This document shows, one piece after another, positions 360 to 6,481 of a stretch of 6,626 nucleotides of DNA. Location of the stretch: positions 1 to 6,626 of the forward strand of contig JABDPK010000231.1 of assembly GCA_013042795.1 (NCBI GenBank). Direction: 5' to 3'. The notes beneath the pieces are model-generated. The model saw only the letters and a list, made by a program, of their open reading frames with translations, was not told where the DNA came from and ran no database searches. Source of the stretch: Saprospiraceae bacterium. GTDB lineage: Bacteria > Bacteroidota > Bacteroidia > Chitinophagales > Saprospiraceae. The position numbers and the translations under genes are program-made. Positions within the stretch are counted from its first letter, which is position 1. Each line of letters begins with the position of its first letter.

Positions 360-833
360 ATGAAAAAGATTAATGAGCCTTACCCATTGAATGATGTTTC
401 AGAATTCCATGAAACATTCGATCTTCCTATTTGTCCTGAACCGCTGATACCTTCACCGGACCGCTGCCGATTGAGAATCAACCTTATCGAAGAGGAACTC
501 GAAGAATTGAAAGAAGCGATCAAAGATGGTGATATCATAGAAGTGGCAGATGCATTTTGTGATCTCCAGTATGTATTATCCGGTGCAATCCTGGAATTCG
601 GACTAGGCGACAGATTTAAAGCCTTGTTTGAAGAAGTACAGAGATCGAATATGAGTAAAACATGCAAAAGTATGGATGAGGCATTGGCGACTCAACTCCA
701 TTACGAAAAGAGGGATGGAACGGTATCAGAAATCATTCACAGGGGTGACGAGTTTATTGTATATCGAAAAAAAGATGGTAAAGTCCTGAAGTCCGTTAAC
801 TATTCAAAAGCAGATCTGACTCAATACTTGTAA
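360..833 (+). CDS. MazG/PRA-PH-like nucleoside triphosphate pyrophosphohydrolase
   Basis: This 157-residue protein fits the all-alpha NTP pyrophosphatase superfamily. Its members hydrolyse (d)NTPs or phosphoribosyl-ATP to the monophosphate and pyrophosphate using Mg2+ held by acidic residues. The metal-binding signature is visible: E-E-E-L-E-E-L-K-E at residues 44-52, then E-V-A-D (61-64) and D68, giving the ExxE...ExxD pattern. A conserved-looking E-V-Q-R-S-N-M-S-K-T (92-101) follows, and the last 40 residues form a predicted beta-rich tail. It is too short for classical two-domain MazG and lacks the HisI/HisE context, so it is probably a stand-alone house-cleaning or nucleotide-pool enzyme; the substrate cannot be read from sequence. 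The ATG at 360 has no Shine-Dalgarno sequence, as is common in Bacteroidota. The 50-bp gap upstream contains TATATTTA (315-322), one mismatch from a Bacteroidota -7 box but with no matching -33 box. The stop codon lies 3 bp from that of the convergent lipoprotein gene. Confidence 0.83.
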   Translation: MKKINEPYPLNDVSEFHETFDLPICPEPLIPSPDRCRLRINLIEEELEELKEAIKDGDIIEVADAFCDLQYVLSGAILEFGLGDRFKALFEEVQRSNMSKTCKSMDEALATQLHYEKRDGTVSEIIHRGDEFIVYRKKDGKVLKSVNYSKADLTQYL

Positions 834-836
834 TTC

Positions 837-1781
837 CTAAAGTGAAAGTATCCTTTGCTTTAATTCGCTTTCTTTAATAAGACTGGGATTTATGGAAATA
901 TCTAAACCGTTATCAGTGATAATGACCTGGTTCTCTGAAAAATAATATTGGTCCTCTATCTTTGAAATTGTAATCAATTTTACGCCACCGCCTTCATGCA
1001 ACATTAATTCACTGGAACAAAAAGATGGGTTGTAGTCATCACTATTCATCCTGGTTATAAAATTAAAATCGGAAGACAACAGGTAGACTAGGGTATTGGA
1101 TTTATCAAATTGATCCGGCACAGATATACAGAATTCGAAGTCTCCTCTTGTATTGTTAACCGGTGATGCCAGGCTATACCAGCCTGGCTTACCAAGCTCG
1201 AATTCATAACCATATTCAATAGTTTCTGTGCCATCCGGAGAAGTACTCGTCCATCCTGTGTAAGAGAAATCATCCACCAGTCCATCTATATTGTAGTCAA
1301 ATACCAGCTTATTTTGATTGACCATACCTCGTCCAAGTACCAATTCTTCAACGGGTTCCTGGCTGGGCACCCTGACAACAAGTTTTTCACCTGTCTGAAG
1401 ATCAAGACTGTTTGAGTTCAAACTTGCATCAACATAAATGCTGTAAAAAGGAGAATATATTTTATCTCCGGTATAATGATCATTGTTGTGCAGCATAAAA
1501 TCCGCGTAGTTCTTCATTTCAATCAAATGCAATTGATAAGAAATATCTGAAGCTTCTGCTTTTGAAAGGAAGGTTCCTGATTCAACAAGGAGTTGCACAT
1601 TATAGTCAGTTACAATTACATGATCTTCTCCATTATCGATCTGTAGTATGTCAGATGTGCTTGGTATTAATGATTTCAGAGATTCTAAAGGTCCTTCTTC
1701 ATCATGTGGAATGAAAAACTCGGAATCTTCATAACATGAAAACATTAAAATGCTAAAGAAGAACAAAACCAGAAATCTCAT
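837..1781 (-). CDS. Predicted lipoprotein, third gene of the sigma/anti-sigma operon
   Basis: The 314-residue protein starts with a short, very hydrophobic signal sequence ending in a lipobox, L-M-F-S-C, with the lipidated cysteine at 16. The residues after Cys16 are Y-E-D-S-E, an acidic stretch like the export signals of Bacteroidota surface lipoproteins, so the outer face of the outer membrane is a plausible location. The remainder looks beta-rich. It resembles, from memory, a Bacteroidota lipoprotein type with an N-terminal all-beta module (L-V-E-S-G-T-F ... L-D-L-Q-T-G-E-K-L-V-V-R-V-P) and a C-terminal module with N-T-L-V-Y-L-L, V-K-L-I-T-I-S-K, Q-Y-Y-F-S-E-N-Q-V-I-I-T-D and a final helix. 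No enzymatic motif is visible, so no biochemical function is claimed. The gene lies 60 bp downstream of the barrel/anti-sigma gene on the same strand, with no convincing terminator or promoter between them. An accessory role in sensing is inferred from position only. Confidence 0.8.
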   Translation of the reverse strand: MRFLVLFFFSILMFSCYEDSEFFIPHDEEGPLESLKSLIPSTSDILQIDNGEDHVIVTDYNVQLLVESGTFLSKAEASDISYQLHLIEMKNYADFMLHNNDHYTGDKIYSPFYSIYVDASLNSNSLDLQTGEKLVVRVPSQEPVEELVLGRGMVNQNKLVFDYNIDGLVDDFSYTGWTSTSPDGTETIEYGYEFELGKPGWYSLASPVNNTRGDFEFCISVPDQFDKSNTLVYLLSSDFNFITRMNSDDYNPSFCSSELMLHEGGGVKLITISKIEDQYYFSENQVIITDNGLDISINPSLIKESELKQRILSL

Positions 1782-1841
1782 ATTTATTTGGATTTTATAC
1801 TGCTTAGATACATCAGGAATGGTTTGCGCTGCTTGATTACT

Positions 1842-3158
1842 TTATAATCGGTATTTAATGCCGGTCATAATACCAAGTTTAGTGTATTCTTCATTAATCT
1901 GGTTGGAAGGCAGACTAAAACTATTTGGATAATACCTGAAATTTGCTCCTGCATAGAATGAAAATGATTCATTCAAATCAGCTTCAAGATTCAATCCTCC
2001 TGTATAACTGAATCCTATATTGGTTTTAAAATACGAGTTATCATTATTACTGCCAGAACCGTATGCAATTGGAAAATCATTCAACCCCAGCATATGTCCT
2101 TTATTCGAAGATGTGATATTTATCAGAACACCTCCTTTTAAACTCAATCTTAGTCTTTCACTTATTGGAAATTCATATCCTAGTACAAGTGGTATGTCTA
2201 TTTGGGTAAAACTATTGTATGTGGTGACTTCATTGAGACCAGTTTGTTGTACAATCATTGTATCTGTCTGAATAATTGTATCAATATCATTCAGAATCAT
2301 TGTATCAATTGTGATCACAGTACTATTCTTAATGGCATTCTCGTCACGGTGATGAAACTTTATATTGATCCGGTCAACAGCAAGTCCTGATTCAGCAATG
2401 ATACCGTTATCGAACATATATCCAACTCCGAGTGTCGCAGAAAATGAATATGCAGAAGATTCAGTAGTTCTTCGTTTTTGCAGATACTCAATAAATTCAG
2501 CATTCTTGGCATTCAGACTTTGAAATGGAATGTCCGAACTGTATTGGGCATATAGATAAAACCCCGGGTGATATATATTAAAGCTGGGACACTCAGACCC
2601 TGTATTCAAGCCGAAAAGTGAAGGGGATTTGAGATCCCTGAACTCTCCACCTGAGTTCAATGTATTCCACCCAAACTCACTGGACTTTACATGATCTGAT
2701 AATACACTTGTATGCCGTAACATATTCCGATGATTATCACTTTCAGCATTGATAGCACTTTCAGTATTCAAAACACTGGAATTCAAATCTGCTTCAGACT
2801 CAGTATGAAATAAGACATTAGTCGATTGAATGTCGGTGCTCTTAGAAAAATGGATAGGGGAGAGACTGAACCCGAACGACATTCTTTCATTATCAATACT
2901 GGCTACTGGAAAAGCATCACCCGACGAAATAACATCCAATGTTTCGAGTAAGCGTGATTCATTTAGTGTGTGACTGTTTTCAAATTGATATACAAGGAAG
3001 GCTGGTAGAAAAAGGAAAGGCAACAGGAAGAAGAACCAGTACCTCGAATGATCTCTGCGCGGAATAATCCTGGCTTCTATAGCTTCCCATAAGCCATCGG
3101 AAACTGACATCTCAGCATCGATGAGTTTTTCTCTGATATTCTTGTCAAATTTGTTCAA
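1842..3158 (-). CDS. Dma-like dual membrane-spanning anti-sigma factor with outer-membrane beta-barrel
   Basis: The 438-residue protein has four parts. Residues 1-38 are a cytoplasmic anti-sigma-like segment (F-D-K-N-I-R-E-K-L, then S-D-G-L-W-E-A-I-E). R30, R34, R35 and R39 precede one hydrophobic helix at about 39-57, which predicts N-in/C-out topology. Residues about 60-195 are a Ser/Asn/Glu/His-rich linker that looks disordered. Residues about 199-438 alternate like an OMP_b-brl (PorT-type) barrel, with strands such as G-F-Y-L-Y-A-Q-Y, F-T-Q-I-D-I-P-L-V-L-G-Y-E-F and a final G-I-K-Y-R-L. There is no zinc-type HxxxCxxC motif and only one cysteine (190). The architecture matches the Dma proteins of Bacteroides thetaiotaomicron. 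The start is TTG at 3156-3158, inside a TTGA overlap with the sigma stop codon. No in-frame ATG was found in the codons just upstream, and the next Met (17) would remove the conserved-looking N-terminus. Sigma-factor binding is inferred from architecture and gene order. Confidence 0.82.
   Translation of the reverse strand: MNKFDKNIREKLIDAEMSVSDGLWEAIEARIIPRRDHSRYWFFFLLPFLFLPAFLVYQFENSHTLNESRLLETLDVISSGDAFPVASIDNERMSFGFSLSPIHFSKSTDIQSTNVLFHTESEADLNSSVLNTESAINAESDNHRNMLRHTSVLSDHVKSSEFGWNTLNSGGEFRDLKSPSLFGLNTGSECPSFNIYHPGFYLYAQYSSDIPFQSLNAKNAEFIEYLQKRRTTESSAYSFSATLGVGYMFDNGIIAESGLAVDRINIKFHHRDENAIKNSTVITIDTMILNDIDTIIQTDTMIVQQTGLNEVTTYNSFTQIDIPLVLGYEFPISERLRLSLKGGVLINITSSNKGHMLGLNDFPIAYGSGSNNDNSYFKTNIGFSYTGGLNLEADLNESFSFYAGANFRYYPNSFSLPSNQINEEYTKLGIMTGIKYRL
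2251..2316 (-). repeat. Short in-gene repeat encoding D-T-(M/I)-I units in a barrel loop
   Basis: On the plus strand the octamer ATTGTATC occurs three times, at 2257-2264, 2275-2282 and 2299-2306, followed by the related ATTGTGATC at 2308-2316. The spacings of 18 and 24 bases are multiples of three. In the encoded barrel protein this gives D-T-M-I (285-288), D-T-I-I (293-296) and D-T-M-I (299-302). The acidic, Thr-rich stretch lies between two predicted strands, so it probably forms or lines one long loop. Whether the repeat varies in copy number between strains cannot be told from one sequence. Confidence 0.55.
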
Positions 3159-3715
3159 CCAGCCAGTTTTTGTATAGTCAATAATTTTTCCTTCAACATT
3201 TTCCTGGCTTTCACCAGTTGAGAACGGGAAGTACTTTCACCAATTCCCAGCAACTCTGCAATATCTTTATGACTATATCCTTCTATAACATAAAGATTGA
3301 ATACAGCTTTATAGCCATCGGGAAGGGTTTGAACCAATTTGAGGATTTCATCCCGGCTCATTTCCTGAATGACTGTCGGACTGTTATCAAATAACTGATG
3401 CTCTCCGATTTCGGAATAAGCATATTTAACAACATACCGTTGTCTGTATTTCAAAGCAGTATTGATCATGACACGCTTCATCCATGCTTCAAATGACCCA
3501 TGTCCGCTATACAGATGTAATTTATTGAAGACTCTTACAAAACCTTCCTGCAGGATGTCTTCTGCTTCACTTCTGTCCCTCGCGAATCGATAACATAAAG
3601 CCATTAATTTACCTGAGTAAGCGTTAAATAATTGCTTGCATGCCAACCTGTCCCCTTCAAGGCAAAGGCCTATAAGTTCCTGTTCTGTATTATTATTTAG
3701 GAAAAATGGGGACAT
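3155..3715 (-). CDS. ECF-subfamily RNA polymerase sigma factor
   Basis: The 186-residue length is normal for an ECF (group 4) sigma factor, which directs RNA polymerase to a small regulon when released by its anti-sigma factor. Region 2 spans about residues 23-95: D-I-L-Q-E-G-F-V-R-V-F (53-63) is the core-binding region 2.2, and F-E-A-W-M-K-R-V-M-I-N-T-A (75-87) covers the -10-recognising segment. Region 4 spans about 120-178, with the helix-turn-helix Y-S-H-K-D-I-A-E-L-L-G-I-G-E-S-T-S-R-S-Q-L (147-167). No regions 1 or 3 and no C-terminal extension are present. The ATG at 3715 directly follows TTAA and lacks a Shine-Dalgarno sequence. The stop codon overlaps the start of the anti-sigma gene (TTGA), implying translational coupling. 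The gap to the upstream repeat-protein gene is 58 bp. A TATCTTTT (3744-3737) there is one mismatch from a TAnnTTTG box but lacks a -33 partner, so the operon promoter is not identified. Confidence 0.95.
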   Translation of the reverse strand: MSPFFLNNNTEQELIGLCLEGDRLACKQLFNAYSGKLMALCYRFARDRSEAEDILQEGFVRVFNKLHLYSGHGSFEAWMKRVMINTALKYRQRYVVKYAYSEIGEHQLFDNSPTVIQEMSRDEILKLVQTLPDGYKAVFNLYVIEGYSHKDIAELLGIGESTSRSQLVKARKMLKEKLLTIQKLAG

Positions 3716-3773
3716 TTAACTGATTCAATATATTATAAAAGATACTATAAGTTACGATTTTGCTGCCTCAGTA

Positions 3774-4589
3774 TCAACCTTCTTCGTCGATGATAGCATC
3801 ATCAATGATTTCGTTTCCGTCACCATCAAGGTCTTCGAAGCCTGCAATGGGCTCCTGGCTGAGGATTTGATCTTCCGATTTGCCTGTTTCATGGATTGTG
3901 ATTTTTCCTTCTGAAAAAGCATCATATTGTCCTGAAGCGAATTTGTCAGCTTTTGAAAAGAAATCATCCGTTCCTTCAAGCAGAGATCCGCTGGCATCCA
4001 GATCTTCTTCTGCAAAATCTCGTTTAGGTTTTGCCTTTTCTGCTTCAGCCCATGCCTCTGCCTTGTCCATTGTTTCATCCAATTTCTCTGATATTCTTTC
4101 CGAAGCTTGTTTTGCTTTTTCAAATATATCATCCTTCACTTCTAGTACTTTTTCACCAACTGACTCGCTTACCGTTTTTGACTTTTCGAGTAAATCACCG
4201 CCTTTTTCAATCACTTTTTCACCAACCTTTTCAGAAATATCAGAAGCTTTCTCTAAAATATCGCTTCCGGTAGACATCACTTTTTCTCCGACTTCTTCAG
4301 TTATATCCGCAGCTTTCTGAACGACAGGGCTCTCAGCAATTTCATCCTTAACGTCAGAAATTTTCTCCTTGGTCCTTTCAATCAAATCCGCAGAATTCTC
4401 AAGAATAGAATCCTTCAGGCCGGAGGTTTTATCTTCAATGATATCACCTGTTTTTTCAGCGACCTCTTTCGTTTTATCAATGATTTCAGAACCGCTTTCC
4501 ATGACGAAATCGGTGGTTTTTTCTGTGACCGTTTTTCCGACTGCAGTCGCGCCAAAAATTATTTTCTTTAAATCGTTTAAAATTCCCAT
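3774..4589 (-). CDS. Amphipathic 11/22-residue repeat protein (LEA/apolipoprotein/YtxH-like), acidic C-terminus
   Basis: I recognise the type of protein but not a specific function. The 271 residues have no signal peptide or transmembrane helix, so it is probably cytoplasmic. After an N-terminal amphipathic stretch (M-G-I-L-N-D-L-K-K-I-I-F-G), residues about 14-184 are helix-forming, rich in Glu/Lys/Asp/Ser, and periodic at 11 or 22 residues. The clearest units are 97-118, 119-140, 141-162 and 163-184, each starting (T/S)-E-x-(V/I)-(G/S)-E-K. Such repeats occur in LEA-like, apolipoprotein-like and YtxH-labelled stress proteins, which coat membranes or protect against desiccation. Residues 185-271 differ: P-K-R-D-F-A-E-E-D-L-D, several Phe/Gly positions, and a strongly acidic tail with D-L-D-G-D-G-N (253-259). 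That tail resembles the start of an EF-hand or dockerin loop but is not a canonical one. The ATG at 4589 is the only sensible start. The gene is divergent from the coiled-coil gene and 58 bp upstream of the sigma gene. Confidence 0.8.
   Translation of the reverse strand: MGILNDLKKIIFGATAVGKTVTEKTTDFVMESGSEIIDKTKEVAEKTGDIIEDKTSGLKDSILENSADLIERTKEKISDVKDEIAESPVVQKAADITEEVGEKVMSTGSDILEKASDISEKVGEKVIEKGGDLLEKSKTVSESVGEKVLEVKDDIFEKAKQASERISEKLDETMDKAEAWAEAEKAKPKRDFAEEDLDASGSLLEGTDDFFSKADKFASGQYDAFSEGKITIHETGKSEDQILSQEPIAGFEDLDGDGNEIIDDAIIDEEG
4038..4301 (-). repeat. Four tandem imperfect 66-bp repeats inside the amphipathic repeat gene
   Basis: The units run 4301-4236, 4235-4170, 4169-4104 and 4103-4038 on the minus strand, each encoding 22 residues. 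On the plus strand the landmark ACTTTTTCACCAAC, or a close variant, begins at 4147, 4213 and 4279, exactly 66 bases apart. It corresponds to the V-G-E-K-V codons. The fourth unit is the most diverged. The conservation at DNA level suggests fairly recent internal duplication or continued homogenisation, as well as selection on the protein. Confidence 0.85.
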
Positions 4590-4642
4590 AATTGTATTAT
4601 CTCTTTGAATACTAAAGCTACCAAAAAGTGCCTTAAAACATT

Positions 4643-4680: not shown

Positions 4681-4722
4681 GACTTTAATAATTACTTTCG
4701 ATTCTTTAGATTGTATGCGAAT

Positions 4723-5670
4723 ATGGATAGTTTATCACAAGTACAACAGGAAATTAAATCGACATTGGAAGAGTATGAATCTCTTAAAAATGTCGAATCC
4801 CATATCAACGAAATTGAATCTAAACTCAAACTTGCGTACAACAATTTAAAAGAATTAAGCAAGAGACTGGATAAAGAACTTAAGGATATAGAAAATCTGG
4901 AAGGTATAAGCCTTAAAGGTCTGTTCTACAAAACCTTAGGGAACAAGGAAGACCAGATGGATAAAGAGCGCCAGGACTATCTTGAAGTCTCTTTGAAATA
5001 CAAGGAGTATAAGAAGGAGATCGAACTCATGGAGTTTGAGCATAAGTTGCTAAGAAAAAAGCTTAATAATCTTCCAGAATTGAAAATCAAACTCGAGGAC
5101 TTAAAAAAGAAAAGAACAAACGAGATTCTGAGTAGTCCTCAAATACATCTAAGAAATGAATTCCAGGAAATATTAAGGAAAATGGATACTTCCATTTTAT
5201 TGAACAGGGAACTTGAGGAAGCCATTGAAGAAGGTGAAAAAGCTGTTAAACTCTTGGCTGTGGTCAGCTCTTATTTAAGGAAGGCAGGAAAATGGGGGCA
5301 ATGGGATATGGCAGGAAAGAATAGGAGAGGAGCCTATATGAAGCACCAGACTATTGATAAAGCATTAAAGGAATTACCCAGGGCTCAACACCAACTCAAT
5401 ATCTTTACCCGGGAATTAAAAGATCTTGGAGAAAATAATATCAATTTCAAATTGAATATGGTTCAGTTTAACCGCTTTACAGATTTTTTCTTTGATAACC
5501 TGATATCAGACTGGATTATCCAGCAGCGGATAAAAAGTACAATAAACAATATCGAATCGACCAGGGATCATACACAAAGAATTTTATTGAACCTTAAGCA
5601 GGAAAAAGAGCATAATGACGCACGATTTGCCTCTTTAAATGATGAAAAAAACCATATCCTTCTAAGCTAA
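4723..5670 (+). CDS. Conserved coiled-coil protein with WGxWD motif, function unknown
   Basis: I prefer the ATG at 4723 (315 residues); the in-frame TTG at 4711 would add only four residues. There is no signal peptide or membrane helix. Residues about 5-65 and 75-135 are heptad-like Glu/Lys/Leu-rich coiled coils. They are separated by L-E-G-I-S-L-K-G-L-F-Y-K-T-L-G-N-K-E-D-Q (about 55-74), which reads like a conserved hinge. A second conserved-looking block is W-G-Q-W-D-M-A-G (191-198), followed by K-H-x-T-I-D-K-A (207-214), and then F-T-D-F-F-F-D-N-L-I-S-D-W (252-264). A C-terminal helix has further coiled-coil character. From memory, proteins with the same WGxWD...KH..ID.A and F.D.FFD.L..DW blocks occur as uncharacterised proteins in Bacteroidota and Firmicutes. 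No catalytic motif is visible, so a scaffolding or filament-like role is only a guess. The helical-protein gene starts 40 bp downstream on the same strand, so a shared transcript is likely. Confidence 0.8.
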   Translation: MDSLSQVQQEIKSTLEEYESLKNVESHINEIESKLKLAYNNLKELSKRLDKELKDIENLEGISLKGLFYKTLGNKEDQMDKERQDYLEVSLKYKEYKKEIELMEFEHKLLRKKLNNLPELKIKLEDLKKKRTNEILSSPQIHLRNEFQEILRKMDTSILLNRELEEAIEEGEKAVKLLAVVSSYLRKAGKWGQWDMAGKNRRGAYMKHQTIDKALKELPRAQHQLNIFTRELKDLGENNINFKLNMVQFNRFTDFFFDNLISDWIIQQRIKSTINNIESTRDHTQRILLNLKQEKEHNDARFASLNDEKNHILLS

Positions 5671-5710: not shown

Positions 5711-6481
5711 ATGGAAAAGAAAAAAATAGAAAAACTCTTTAAGTACAGGCAACTTCCTGTGATGATGCAAACCATGCCTAAAGAGGAAAGAAAAGCTTTA
5801 AACAAGAAACTAGTGAAACTCCAGAGTGCTATTTATGCTCTTGATTTATACCTGGAAAGTAACTGGAAACTTTCAGATGAAGCATTGAATAACTACTGGA
5901 ATGAGATCAACTCAAGAATGGATGAGTTGGGTGTGTCCGCAGATGGAAGAACAAAACTTACAGCCAGTATAAAGAGATACCAGTTGCATGAAAGTCAGAT
6001 CAGGGAAAACAAATTACCTACAAGACTGGATCCTGAATACTATTATTATTATAAATCGTGTGATGTGAGACTCATGAGAAACCTGATCTACAGGTTTACG
6101 CCTCAACTGGCAAAATCTGAAAGTGCAACAGATTGGCGATACTATGATCTAATTACAGAGATTAATGATGATATAGGCGATCTCTTTGAGGATCTGGATA
6201 CAATAAATGGAAATTTATTCATCATCAAAATTTTTGAAGAAGGATTGGAAGAATCCGTGAAATTCTTTTCTGATTTTCTCGATGATATATTATTGAAATC
6301 TATAGAAAGGTTCAGGTCAAAATCGAAGGAAGAACTACGATATATCTCGAATTTAACTTTTGTGCGCTATGTAGAGACAAAATCACTGCTGAATAAGATG
6401 AAAAATGATATTGAAAAGAAAGGGATAAGCAGCAAAAAAGCAATGATTAAAAAACTTAGAAAATTGAAAAAATCACAATAG
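5711..6481 (+). CDS. Alpha-helical protein of unknown function, partner of the coiled-coil gene
   Basis: I do not recognise this 256-residue protein. It begins at ATG 5711 (M-E-K-K-K-I-E-K-L-F) and ends at TAG 6479-6481. It has no signal peptide, transmembrane segment or lipobox and looks entirely helical and cytoplasmic. The first 100 residues are basic and amphipathic. A run of five tyrosines (Y-Y-Y-Y-Y, about 110-114) is followed by the most family-like part: C-D-V-R-L-M-R-N-L-I-Y-R-F, D-W-R-Y-Y-D, and the acidic E-I-N-D-D-I-G-D-L-F-E-D-L-D-T-I-N-G-N. The C-terminus is strongly basic (K-K-x-M-I-K-K-L-R-K-L-K-K). The E-x-N-D-D-x-x-D cluster could bind metal, but no known enzyme signature is completed, so this is not claimed. 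Its 40-bp spacing from the coiled-coil gene, with no terminator visible, argues for one operon and possibly one complex. The alternative is a simple neighbour of unrelated function. Confidence 0.77.
   Translation: MEKKKIEKLFKYRQLPVMMQTMPKEERKALNKKLVKLQSAIYALDLYLESNWKLSDEALNNYWNEINSRMDELGVSADGRTKLTASIKRYQLHESQIRENKLPTRLDPEYYYYYKSCDVRLMRNLIYRFTPQLAKSESATDWRYYDLITEINDDIGDLFEDLDTINGNLFIIKIFEEGLEESVKFFSDFLDDILLKSIERFRSKSKEELRYISNLTFVRYVETKSLLNKMKNDIEKKGISSKKAMIKKLRKLKKSQ

Follow-up and report, generated by a model that had tools for sequence, protein, structure and literature searches.

A signal that has to pass two membranes and a cell wall before it arrives at RNA polymerase is usually thought of as handed along a relay of several proteins. 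In the FecA/FecR/FecI system, an outer-membrane signal is passed to an extracytoplasmic function (ECF) sigma factor via a separate receptor, an anti-sigma factor and TonB. The dual membrane-spanning anti-sigma factors (Dma) of Bacteroides thetaiotaomicron, which are tied to vesiculation, are described in the published account as an N-terminal anti-sigma domain, a transmembrane helix, a long disordered tether and a C-terminal barrel, with an adjacent ECF21 sigma gene (PMC13088901). Here we analyse a locus at positions 837 to 3,715, minus strand, of a stretch of 6,626 nucleotides from a Saprospiraceae bacterium (assembly GCA_013042795.1, contig JABDPK010000231.1), referred to below as the window, in which an ECF sigma gene, a Dma-type gene and a lipoprotein gene follow one another. 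We read the locus as a probable transenvelope sigma switch of the Dma type that has a lipoprotein of its own, and put the probability of this reading at about 0.72.

The locus beside described Dma systems

The original prediction had named three genes, and a check of the open reading frames (ORFs) found all of them in place on the minus strand. The features of the operon are as follows.

3155..3715, minus strand: ECF sigma factor, 186 amino acids, placed in the Dma-type (Das) clade (Pfam Sigma70_r2 and Sigma70_r4_2; tree of 148 sigma factors)
1842..3158, minus strand: Dma-type protein, 438 amino acids, with N-terminal segment, transmembrane helix, tether and barrel (ORFs, AlphaFold model, fold matches, orthologs)
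3039..3158, minus strand: residues 1-40, the presumed anti-sigma part, with a pair of short helices and a W at residue 24 (model confidence about 50-63)
2976..3038, minus strand: predicted single transmembrane helix, about residues 41-61 (hydropathy and model)
2592..2975, minus strand: predicted disordered tether, about residues 62-189, no cysteine (model confidence below 50)
2589..2591, minus strand: codon for the single invariant cysteine, residue 190, or 189 in alignment numbering (ortholog alignment)
1848..2564, minus strand: predicted C-terminal beta-barrel, residues 199-437, OmpA-like (Pfam, model, Foldseek)
837..1781, minus strand: lipoprotein, 314 amino acids, two predicted beta domains, no Pfam match (homologs downstream of Dma; model)

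The sigma product matches Sigma70_r2 at 5e-15 and Sigma70_r4_2 at 7e-16 in Pfam, and its gene overlaps the next one as had been claimed: the sigma stop codon shares four bases with the TTG start of the Dma-type ORF. Because the same four-base overlap (spacing -3) recurs in 13 of 20 related loci, the TTG start was preferred over an internal ATG at 3110.

The Dma-type protein was modelled with AlphaFold2 from a 14-sequence alignment (A1), the numbering of which is that of the full product minus one. The model, with a mean predicted local distance difference test score (pLDDT) of 65.5 and a predicted template modelling score of 0.49, has helices at residues 2-13 and 22-29 and a transmembrane helix spanning 40-60, followed by disorder over 59-188 and a barrel from 198 to 436 (alignment numbering). 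Hydropathy and model agree with the predicted single transmembrane helix behind a short N-terminal segment, and the product holds one strongly hydrophobic stretch (alignment residues 37-60). The basic patch said to precede the helix is present but modest, with a net charge of +1 over the 12 residues before the hydrophobic stretch and from -3 to +4 in orthologs, by which we mean proteins with full-length similarity and shared neighbours. The tryptophan of the N-terminal segment is kept in 30 of 32 orthologs. By eye, the N-terminal motif stands in tandem in the Dma-type proteins of three other loci (L029, L033, L070), as if for two sigma molecules.

The linker and barrel foreseen behind the helix also appear in the model, as a tether of 129 residues from the end of the helix to the cysteine (pLDDT below 50) and a confident barrel (pLDDT mostly 87-95, with two long loops at 58-75). 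The distance from helix to cysteine ranges from 120 to 239 residues, with a median of 159, across the orthologs in which a transmembrane helix was detected (31 of 32); the remaining one, P0003, is missing its N-terminus. The part that follows the cysteine is near-constant at 237-255 residues in all 32. Fully stretched, 120 residues would measure about 40 nm by our own arithmetic (0.35 nm per residue), enough for the periplasm, and the length pattern suggests a rope between two membranes, both predicted locations. In the barrel check proposed by the original prediction, the Pfam profile OMP_b-brl ended just below the cut-off (26.2 against 28.7 bits), but the Foldseek matches in the PDB are outer-membrane barrels, with the best template modelling (TM) scores by target length for OmpA (9fzc, 0.71), NspA (0.66), OprG (0.57) and OmpW (0.53). 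The Dma-type profile gave three matches in a sequence search of the PDB, the best at E 0.005, which were judged spurious; a phage search with the protein gave no match. An OMP_b-brl_2 search of three genomes returned many barrels and did not single out the Dma-type proteins.

All 32 orthologs share a cysteine where the tether meets the barrel, and in 27 of them the protein has no other. In a wider set of 47 Dma-type proteins, in which the junction is aligned with less certainty, that column holds a cysteine in 19, and 18 of the remaining 28 proteins are cysteine-free. The invariant cysteine is largely specific to the ortholog group of the window.

Since the four published architectural features, the anti-sigma domain as a putative one, and an adjacent ECF sigma gene are present in sequence and model, we assign the sigma/Dma pair provisionally to the Dma type. 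The order of the parts and the adjoining sigma gene are those of Dma1/Das1 and Dma2/Das2 of B. thetaiotaomicron, for whose own Dma proteins an operon of dma2 type (L062) stood in. The A1 profile reached this locus at 3.9e-7, and its order, sigma - Dma - DUF4943 - DUF4858 - nitronate monooxygenase, is the published dma2 order, das2-dma2-BT_1557-1556-1555 (PMC13088901). The N-terminus of the L062 Dma protein aligns with the ortholog family of the window (hhalign P 1.3e-7, 42 columns), the two sigma factors are 36% identical and fall in the same clade, and in both loci a lipoprotein-type gene lies downstream. The architecture, the adjacent sigma gene and this link support, at the level of sequence, the view, put forward in the original prediction, that the locus is a Dma-like system in another Bacteroidota lineage. 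Unlike Dma1 and Dma2, the window comes from another Bacteroidota order, has no known tie to vesicles, and adds the invariant junction cysteine and two copies of one promoter-like motif. The window does not show the downstream DUF4943, DUF4858 and nitronate monooxygenase genes of the Dma2 subtype, and hhalign found no detectable similarity between the window lipoprotein and the DUF4943 protein of the dma2-type locus.

Three further systems invite comparison. Like the window, Dma3 combines a transmembrane helix, tether and barrel with a sigma factor of the same clade, but there the sigma factor is fused to the rest, whereas the window encodes sigma and Dma as two overlapping genes. FecA/FecR/FecI shares with the window an outer-membrane signal to an ECF sigma factor, which for the window is proposed, but the window would use one chain; a Pfam search of the eight window proteins found neither a FecR domain nor a TonB-type receptor, as the original prediction had expected for the receptor. 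In the M0N98_03761/03760 pair of Phocaeicola vulgatus, as with EcfO of B. fragilis, a large anti-sigma factor is likewise predicted to reach across the periplasm and to end in a C-terminal outer-membrane barrel, but the regulon of the Phocaeicola pair is linked to longer O-antigen and NigD genes rise with the toxin, and the accessible part of that report shows no shared lipoprotein (PMC9308784).

Sigma factor clade and gene arrangements

Surveys with the Dma profile returned 37 loci, 36 of them distinct (L002-L038), and each distinct locus has an ECF sigma gene upstream, in 33 within the locus and in three in extended stretches. With the window's included, Pfam found Sigma70_r4_2 in 37 of 37 upstream sigma factors and Sigma70_r2 in 36. 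We then took a census of sigma factors in two genomes, the Saprospiraceae metagenome-assembled genome (MAG) G001 and G203, in which Sigma70_r4_2 had 43 and 29 matches and a sigma ORF was recognised for 37 and 25. The six others in G001 were four open frames of 70-221 amino acids, which were left out, and two matches inside an examined stretch with no recognised sigma ORF; the four in G203 were three stretches with no sigma ORF and a 53-residue piece, also left out.

A model of Dma-linked sigma factors splits this census into scores of 149-235 bits (20 in G001, five in G203) and of 27-94 bits (17 and 20), and eight of the 25 high-scoring sigma factors belonged to its training set. All 25 are followed by a transmembrane protein, which carries the N-terminal motif in 23 cases and a barrel match in 17; the eight partners with no barrel match comprise three cut by a contig end, three short proteins (109-197 amino acids) and two of full length. 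Next to the 37 low-scoring sigma factors there is no barrel match and a marginal N-terminal motif in two cases. The Dma clade would thus account for 20 of the 37 examined sigma factors in G001, where mixing within a MAG could inflate the count, and for five of 25 in G203. In a tree of 148 sigma factors, one branch with a value of 99 in the Shimodaira-Hasegawa-like approximate likelihood ratio test parts 110 high-scoring from 38 low-scoring members, the high side being largely selected, as many of its members were picked for a Dma-type neighbour or a high score. The sigma factors of the window and of the dma2-type operon both lie on the Dma side of this branch.

Dma proteins are reportedly confined to Bacteroidota; the genome surveys here covered one class, one order and one family, and most protein matches came without an organism. 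In the class survey, which scored at most six candidates per genome, 88 of 247 genomes matched A1 at 1e-5, and within the order of G001, 81 of 298 matched at 1e-30. The 20 related loci are the best places from the order survey, with G203 and G001 excluded; the sigma gene is present in all 20, and a lipoprotein homolog lies downstream of Dma in 16. Loci in G203 (L043) and G230 (L044) also carry the lipoprotein. The sigma/Dma/lipoprotein unit thus recurs across one Bacteroidota order, which is reported here as new. In six loci (L012, L013, L015, L020, L021, L031) a large secreted protein of more than 480 amino acids, running past the end of the locus, lies directly downstream in place of the lipoprotein.

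Two other arrangements were met. Among short open frames, the class survey found 11 loci (L036, L051-L060) with an anti-sigma protein too short for a barrel, and in eight of them (L036, L051-L057) the sigma gene and the short transmembrane anti-sigma gene are followed by a secreted protein as the third gene; six of these eight proteins match OMP_b-brl_2 at 0.003 or better, three of them above the cut-off, and two have no match. A scan of 41 genomes from the family of G074 gave seven fusions (L128-L134) that join sigma to a transmembrane helix, tether and barrel. The fusions were considered as evidence of sigma/anti-sigma contact and dropped, the anti-sigma segment being missing in all seven. 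Judged by their gene content, the three arrangements tie sigma factor, membrane helix and predicted barrel into one functional unit.

Promoter-like sites, the lipoprotein and neighbouring genes

Two copies of one promoter-like motif lie in the window, the first of them outside the three-gene span.

3740..3766, minus strand: promoter-like GCAGC-N16-GTATCT at 51 bp upstream of the sigma start codon (motif from relatives)
1806..1832, minus strand: promoter-like GCAGC-N16-GTATCT at 51 bp upstream of the lipoprotein start codon (motif from relatives)

GGCARC and GTATCT boxes were first spotted by eye upstream of 21 operon starts, a set that included neither the region immediately upstream of sigma in the window nor that of any lipoprotein gene; an automatic word count upstream of the 21 starts did no better than shuffles. 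A pattern with a wider spacer occurred within 250 bp in seven of ten sigma-first loci, against a shuffle mean of 0.01. The final pattern, GCARC-N15/16-GYRTCW within 150 bp of start codons, for which the spacer limits were fixed after earlier scans, precedes the sigma gene in 14 of 24 loci and the lipoprotein gene in seven of 19 (single-base shuffle mean 0.009 each). The exact form GGCARC-N16-GTATCT has 26 sites in seven genomes, chosen since most carry the motif before sigma, against five for the reversed pattern. Ten of the 26 precede the sigma gene (six) or the lipoprotein gene (four) of the same operon; six of the other 16 lie inside larger ORFs, and the rest stand before varied genes or none.

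Because the same motif precedes both genes at 51 bp in the window and recurs in relatives, sigma and lipoprotein are probably under one control. The sigma factor most likely drives itself and, separately, the lipoprotein gene, with the two sites as candidate promoters of an autoregulated system. Parallels exist in B. thetaiotaomicron, where das2, BT_1557 and BT_1556 rank with the most strongly induced genes of a dma2 deletion and nigD1 is strongly induced in a dma1 deletion (PMC13088901).

That a lipoprotein gene follows the Dma-type gene, as originally proposed, agrees with a hydrophobic N-terminus and a cysteine at residue 16 shared by all 21 sequences, among them that of the window. A Pfam search gave no match for the protein or for two relatives. 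Its model, built from a five-sequence alignment, has two beta domains (pLDDT 77) and finds no PDB fold at E 0.001 or better. Two further cysteines co-occur in the same 13 of 21 sequences, apparently as a disulfide within the protein. Behind the lipid cysteine the sequence reads C-x-K-D/E in 11 of 21 cases and C-Y-E-D in the window. The lipoprotein export signal is K-(D/E)2, and K-D alone is insufficient, according to the accessible part of its description (PMC5080379); surface exposure is thus possible, the residues resembling this signal without meeting it.

Two conserved neighbours lie upstream of the operon.

3774..4589, minus strand: helical protein, 271 amino acids, directly upstream of sigma, outside the span 837..3715 (homologs at related loci)
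4711..5670, plus strand: divergent conserved neighbour, 319 amino acids (six of 20 related loci; 42% identity in L001)

The 271-residue protein has a homolog upstream of sigma in ten of 20 related loci (52% identity in L001), with amphipathic repeats and weak apolipoprotein/YtxH-like Pfam matches below the cut-off. A relaxed motif match (4607-4631, minus strand) lies 42 bp before its gene. A promoter shared with the operon was considered for this gene and rejected: the window has no more than the relaxed match at 4631 in front of it, and the strict motif occurs at that place in none of nine relatives. The relaxed pattern also gives a chance-like site at 5343 (plus strand) inside the 319-residue gene. 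At 5711-6481 (plus strand) lies a 256-residue gene, which like the 319-residue gene has no convincing Pfam match; L174 keeps both beside the operon, the former at 46% identity, and the two form a conserved genomic block. On the other side, at 360-833 (plus strand), is a protein with a PRA-PH (MazG-like) domain that is extended at its C-terminus by about 60 residues (Pfam). The closest database entry of the Dma-type protein is a 99% match in a Bacteroidia MAG, and that of the lipoprotein is a protein of a Saprospiraceae MAG at 99% identity, which places the lineage of the window, on sequence identity, in Saprospiraceae or close to it.

Mechanism, competing explanations and meaning

In the mechanism that we propose, the first 40 or so residues of the Dma-type protein would retain the sigma factor at the inner membrane, which a single helix would cross, and the disordered tether of about 130 residues would cross the periplasm to a small OmpA-like barrel, for which the model suits eight strands, inserted as an anchor in the outer membrane. 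The signal would then run inward. An outer-membrane event, be it a ligand, damage or failed barrel assembly, would break the hold on sigma, most likely by proteolytic cutting of the tether and then of the transmembrane helix, a step drawn by analogy with other anti-sigma factors. The freed sigma factor would transcribe its own operon and, from the second copy of the same promoter, the lipoprotein gene, and the lipoprotein may act at the outer membrane as an effector or feedback partner of the barrel.

Several observations count against this switch. The N-terminal segment is modelled with a pLDDT of about 50-63, the OMP_b-brl match is sub-threshold, and the Foldseek list, when ranked by E-value, is led by larger barrels that superpose with low TM-scores (a Legionella porin, OpcA, CymD). 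The short anti-sigma forms imply that the barrel need not be covalently joined, and in the fusions sigma runs straight into the transmembrane helix with no N-terminal anti-sigma segment. The lipoprotein is missing from four of the 20 related loci (L179, L183, L184, L186) and is thus dispensable. Within 150 bp, ten of 24 loci lack the final pattern before sigma and 12 of 19 lack it before the lipoprotein gene; among the 14 sigma sites, that of L178 (at -130) is doubtful, and the choice of the seven genomes and the six exact sites inside larger ORFs weigh in the same direction.

What would trigger the switch may be answered in two ways, which we consider equally open, each plausible at somewhat less than even odds. 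Failed insertion by the beta-barrel assembly machinery, or damage to the outer membrane, could leave an unfolded barrel or a slack tether to be cut, and sigma would be freed with no ligand at all. For the similar Phocaeicola pair, an envelope-damaging toxin is reported to raise the sigma factor 33-fold, with envelope stress given by the authors as the likely signal (PMC9308784), and a tether that is disordered, variable in length and never below 120 residues in 31 orthologs fits such an alarm. Twenty clade sigma factors in one MAG would be redundant for a single general alarm, however, and a dedicated lipoprotein in 16 of 20 loci suggests something specific. Alternatively, the barrel and a surface lipoprotein could together bind an extracellular compound, as the authors of Dma2 hypothesise for glycans (PMC13088901). 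The many paralogous pairs in one genome, the two predicted beta domains of the lipoprotein and the charged residues behind its lipid cysteine favour such a receptor. The insufficiency of K-D alone for export, the lack of a PDB fold for the lipoprotein and a Pfam search of the 6.6-kb window that found no transport or degradation genes speak against it.

A redox switch, in which oxidation or a mixed disulfide of the junction cysteine decides whether the tether is cut, seems rather improbable to us. The invariance of this cysteine, mostly the sole one of the protein, and the many cysteine-free proteins in the wider set would suit it, and a comparable pair in B. fragilis is described as responsive to oxidative stress (PMC9308784), but the lipoprotein has no conserved free partner cysteine, its two others pairing up, and the four loci that lack the lipoprotein still keep the junction cysteine. 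Least probable of all is ordinary anti-sigma action at the inner membrane, with the barrel cut off or never at the outer membrane, which the separate, often barrel-like third-gene proteins of the split forms recall but which fits poorly with the fused form, the absence of any tether below 120 residues and the near-constant size of the barrel part.

An extended form of the Dma-type switch may be offered tentatively, although we hold it to be somewhat less likely than either trigger discussed above. In this three-part version, the lone cysteine where tether and barrel meet would decide the signal, the lipoprotein made from the second sigma-promoter copy would bind the barrel to reset or fire it, and up to half of the ECF sigma factors in some Saprospiraceae would be wired in this way. 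In the literature covered, we found no report of the lipoprotein, the cysteine, the promoter or such numbers of pairs in Saprospiraceae; the founding paper of 2024 lay outside this coverage, and the negative is weak evidence of absence.

The locus provides four handles not found in the accounts covered of the Bacteroides examples: a conserved partner lipoprotein of another family, paired promoter-like sites suited to a reporter, a cysteine that can be labelled or mutated, and a genome in which about twenty parallel copies allow barrels and tethers to be compared. With one chain fixed in the inner and the outer membrane, the question of how a signal crosses the envelope would become directly testable. 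If the extended form is true, some Saprospiraceae would possess a private set of direct lines from the outer membrane to transcription in place of TonB/FecR circuits.

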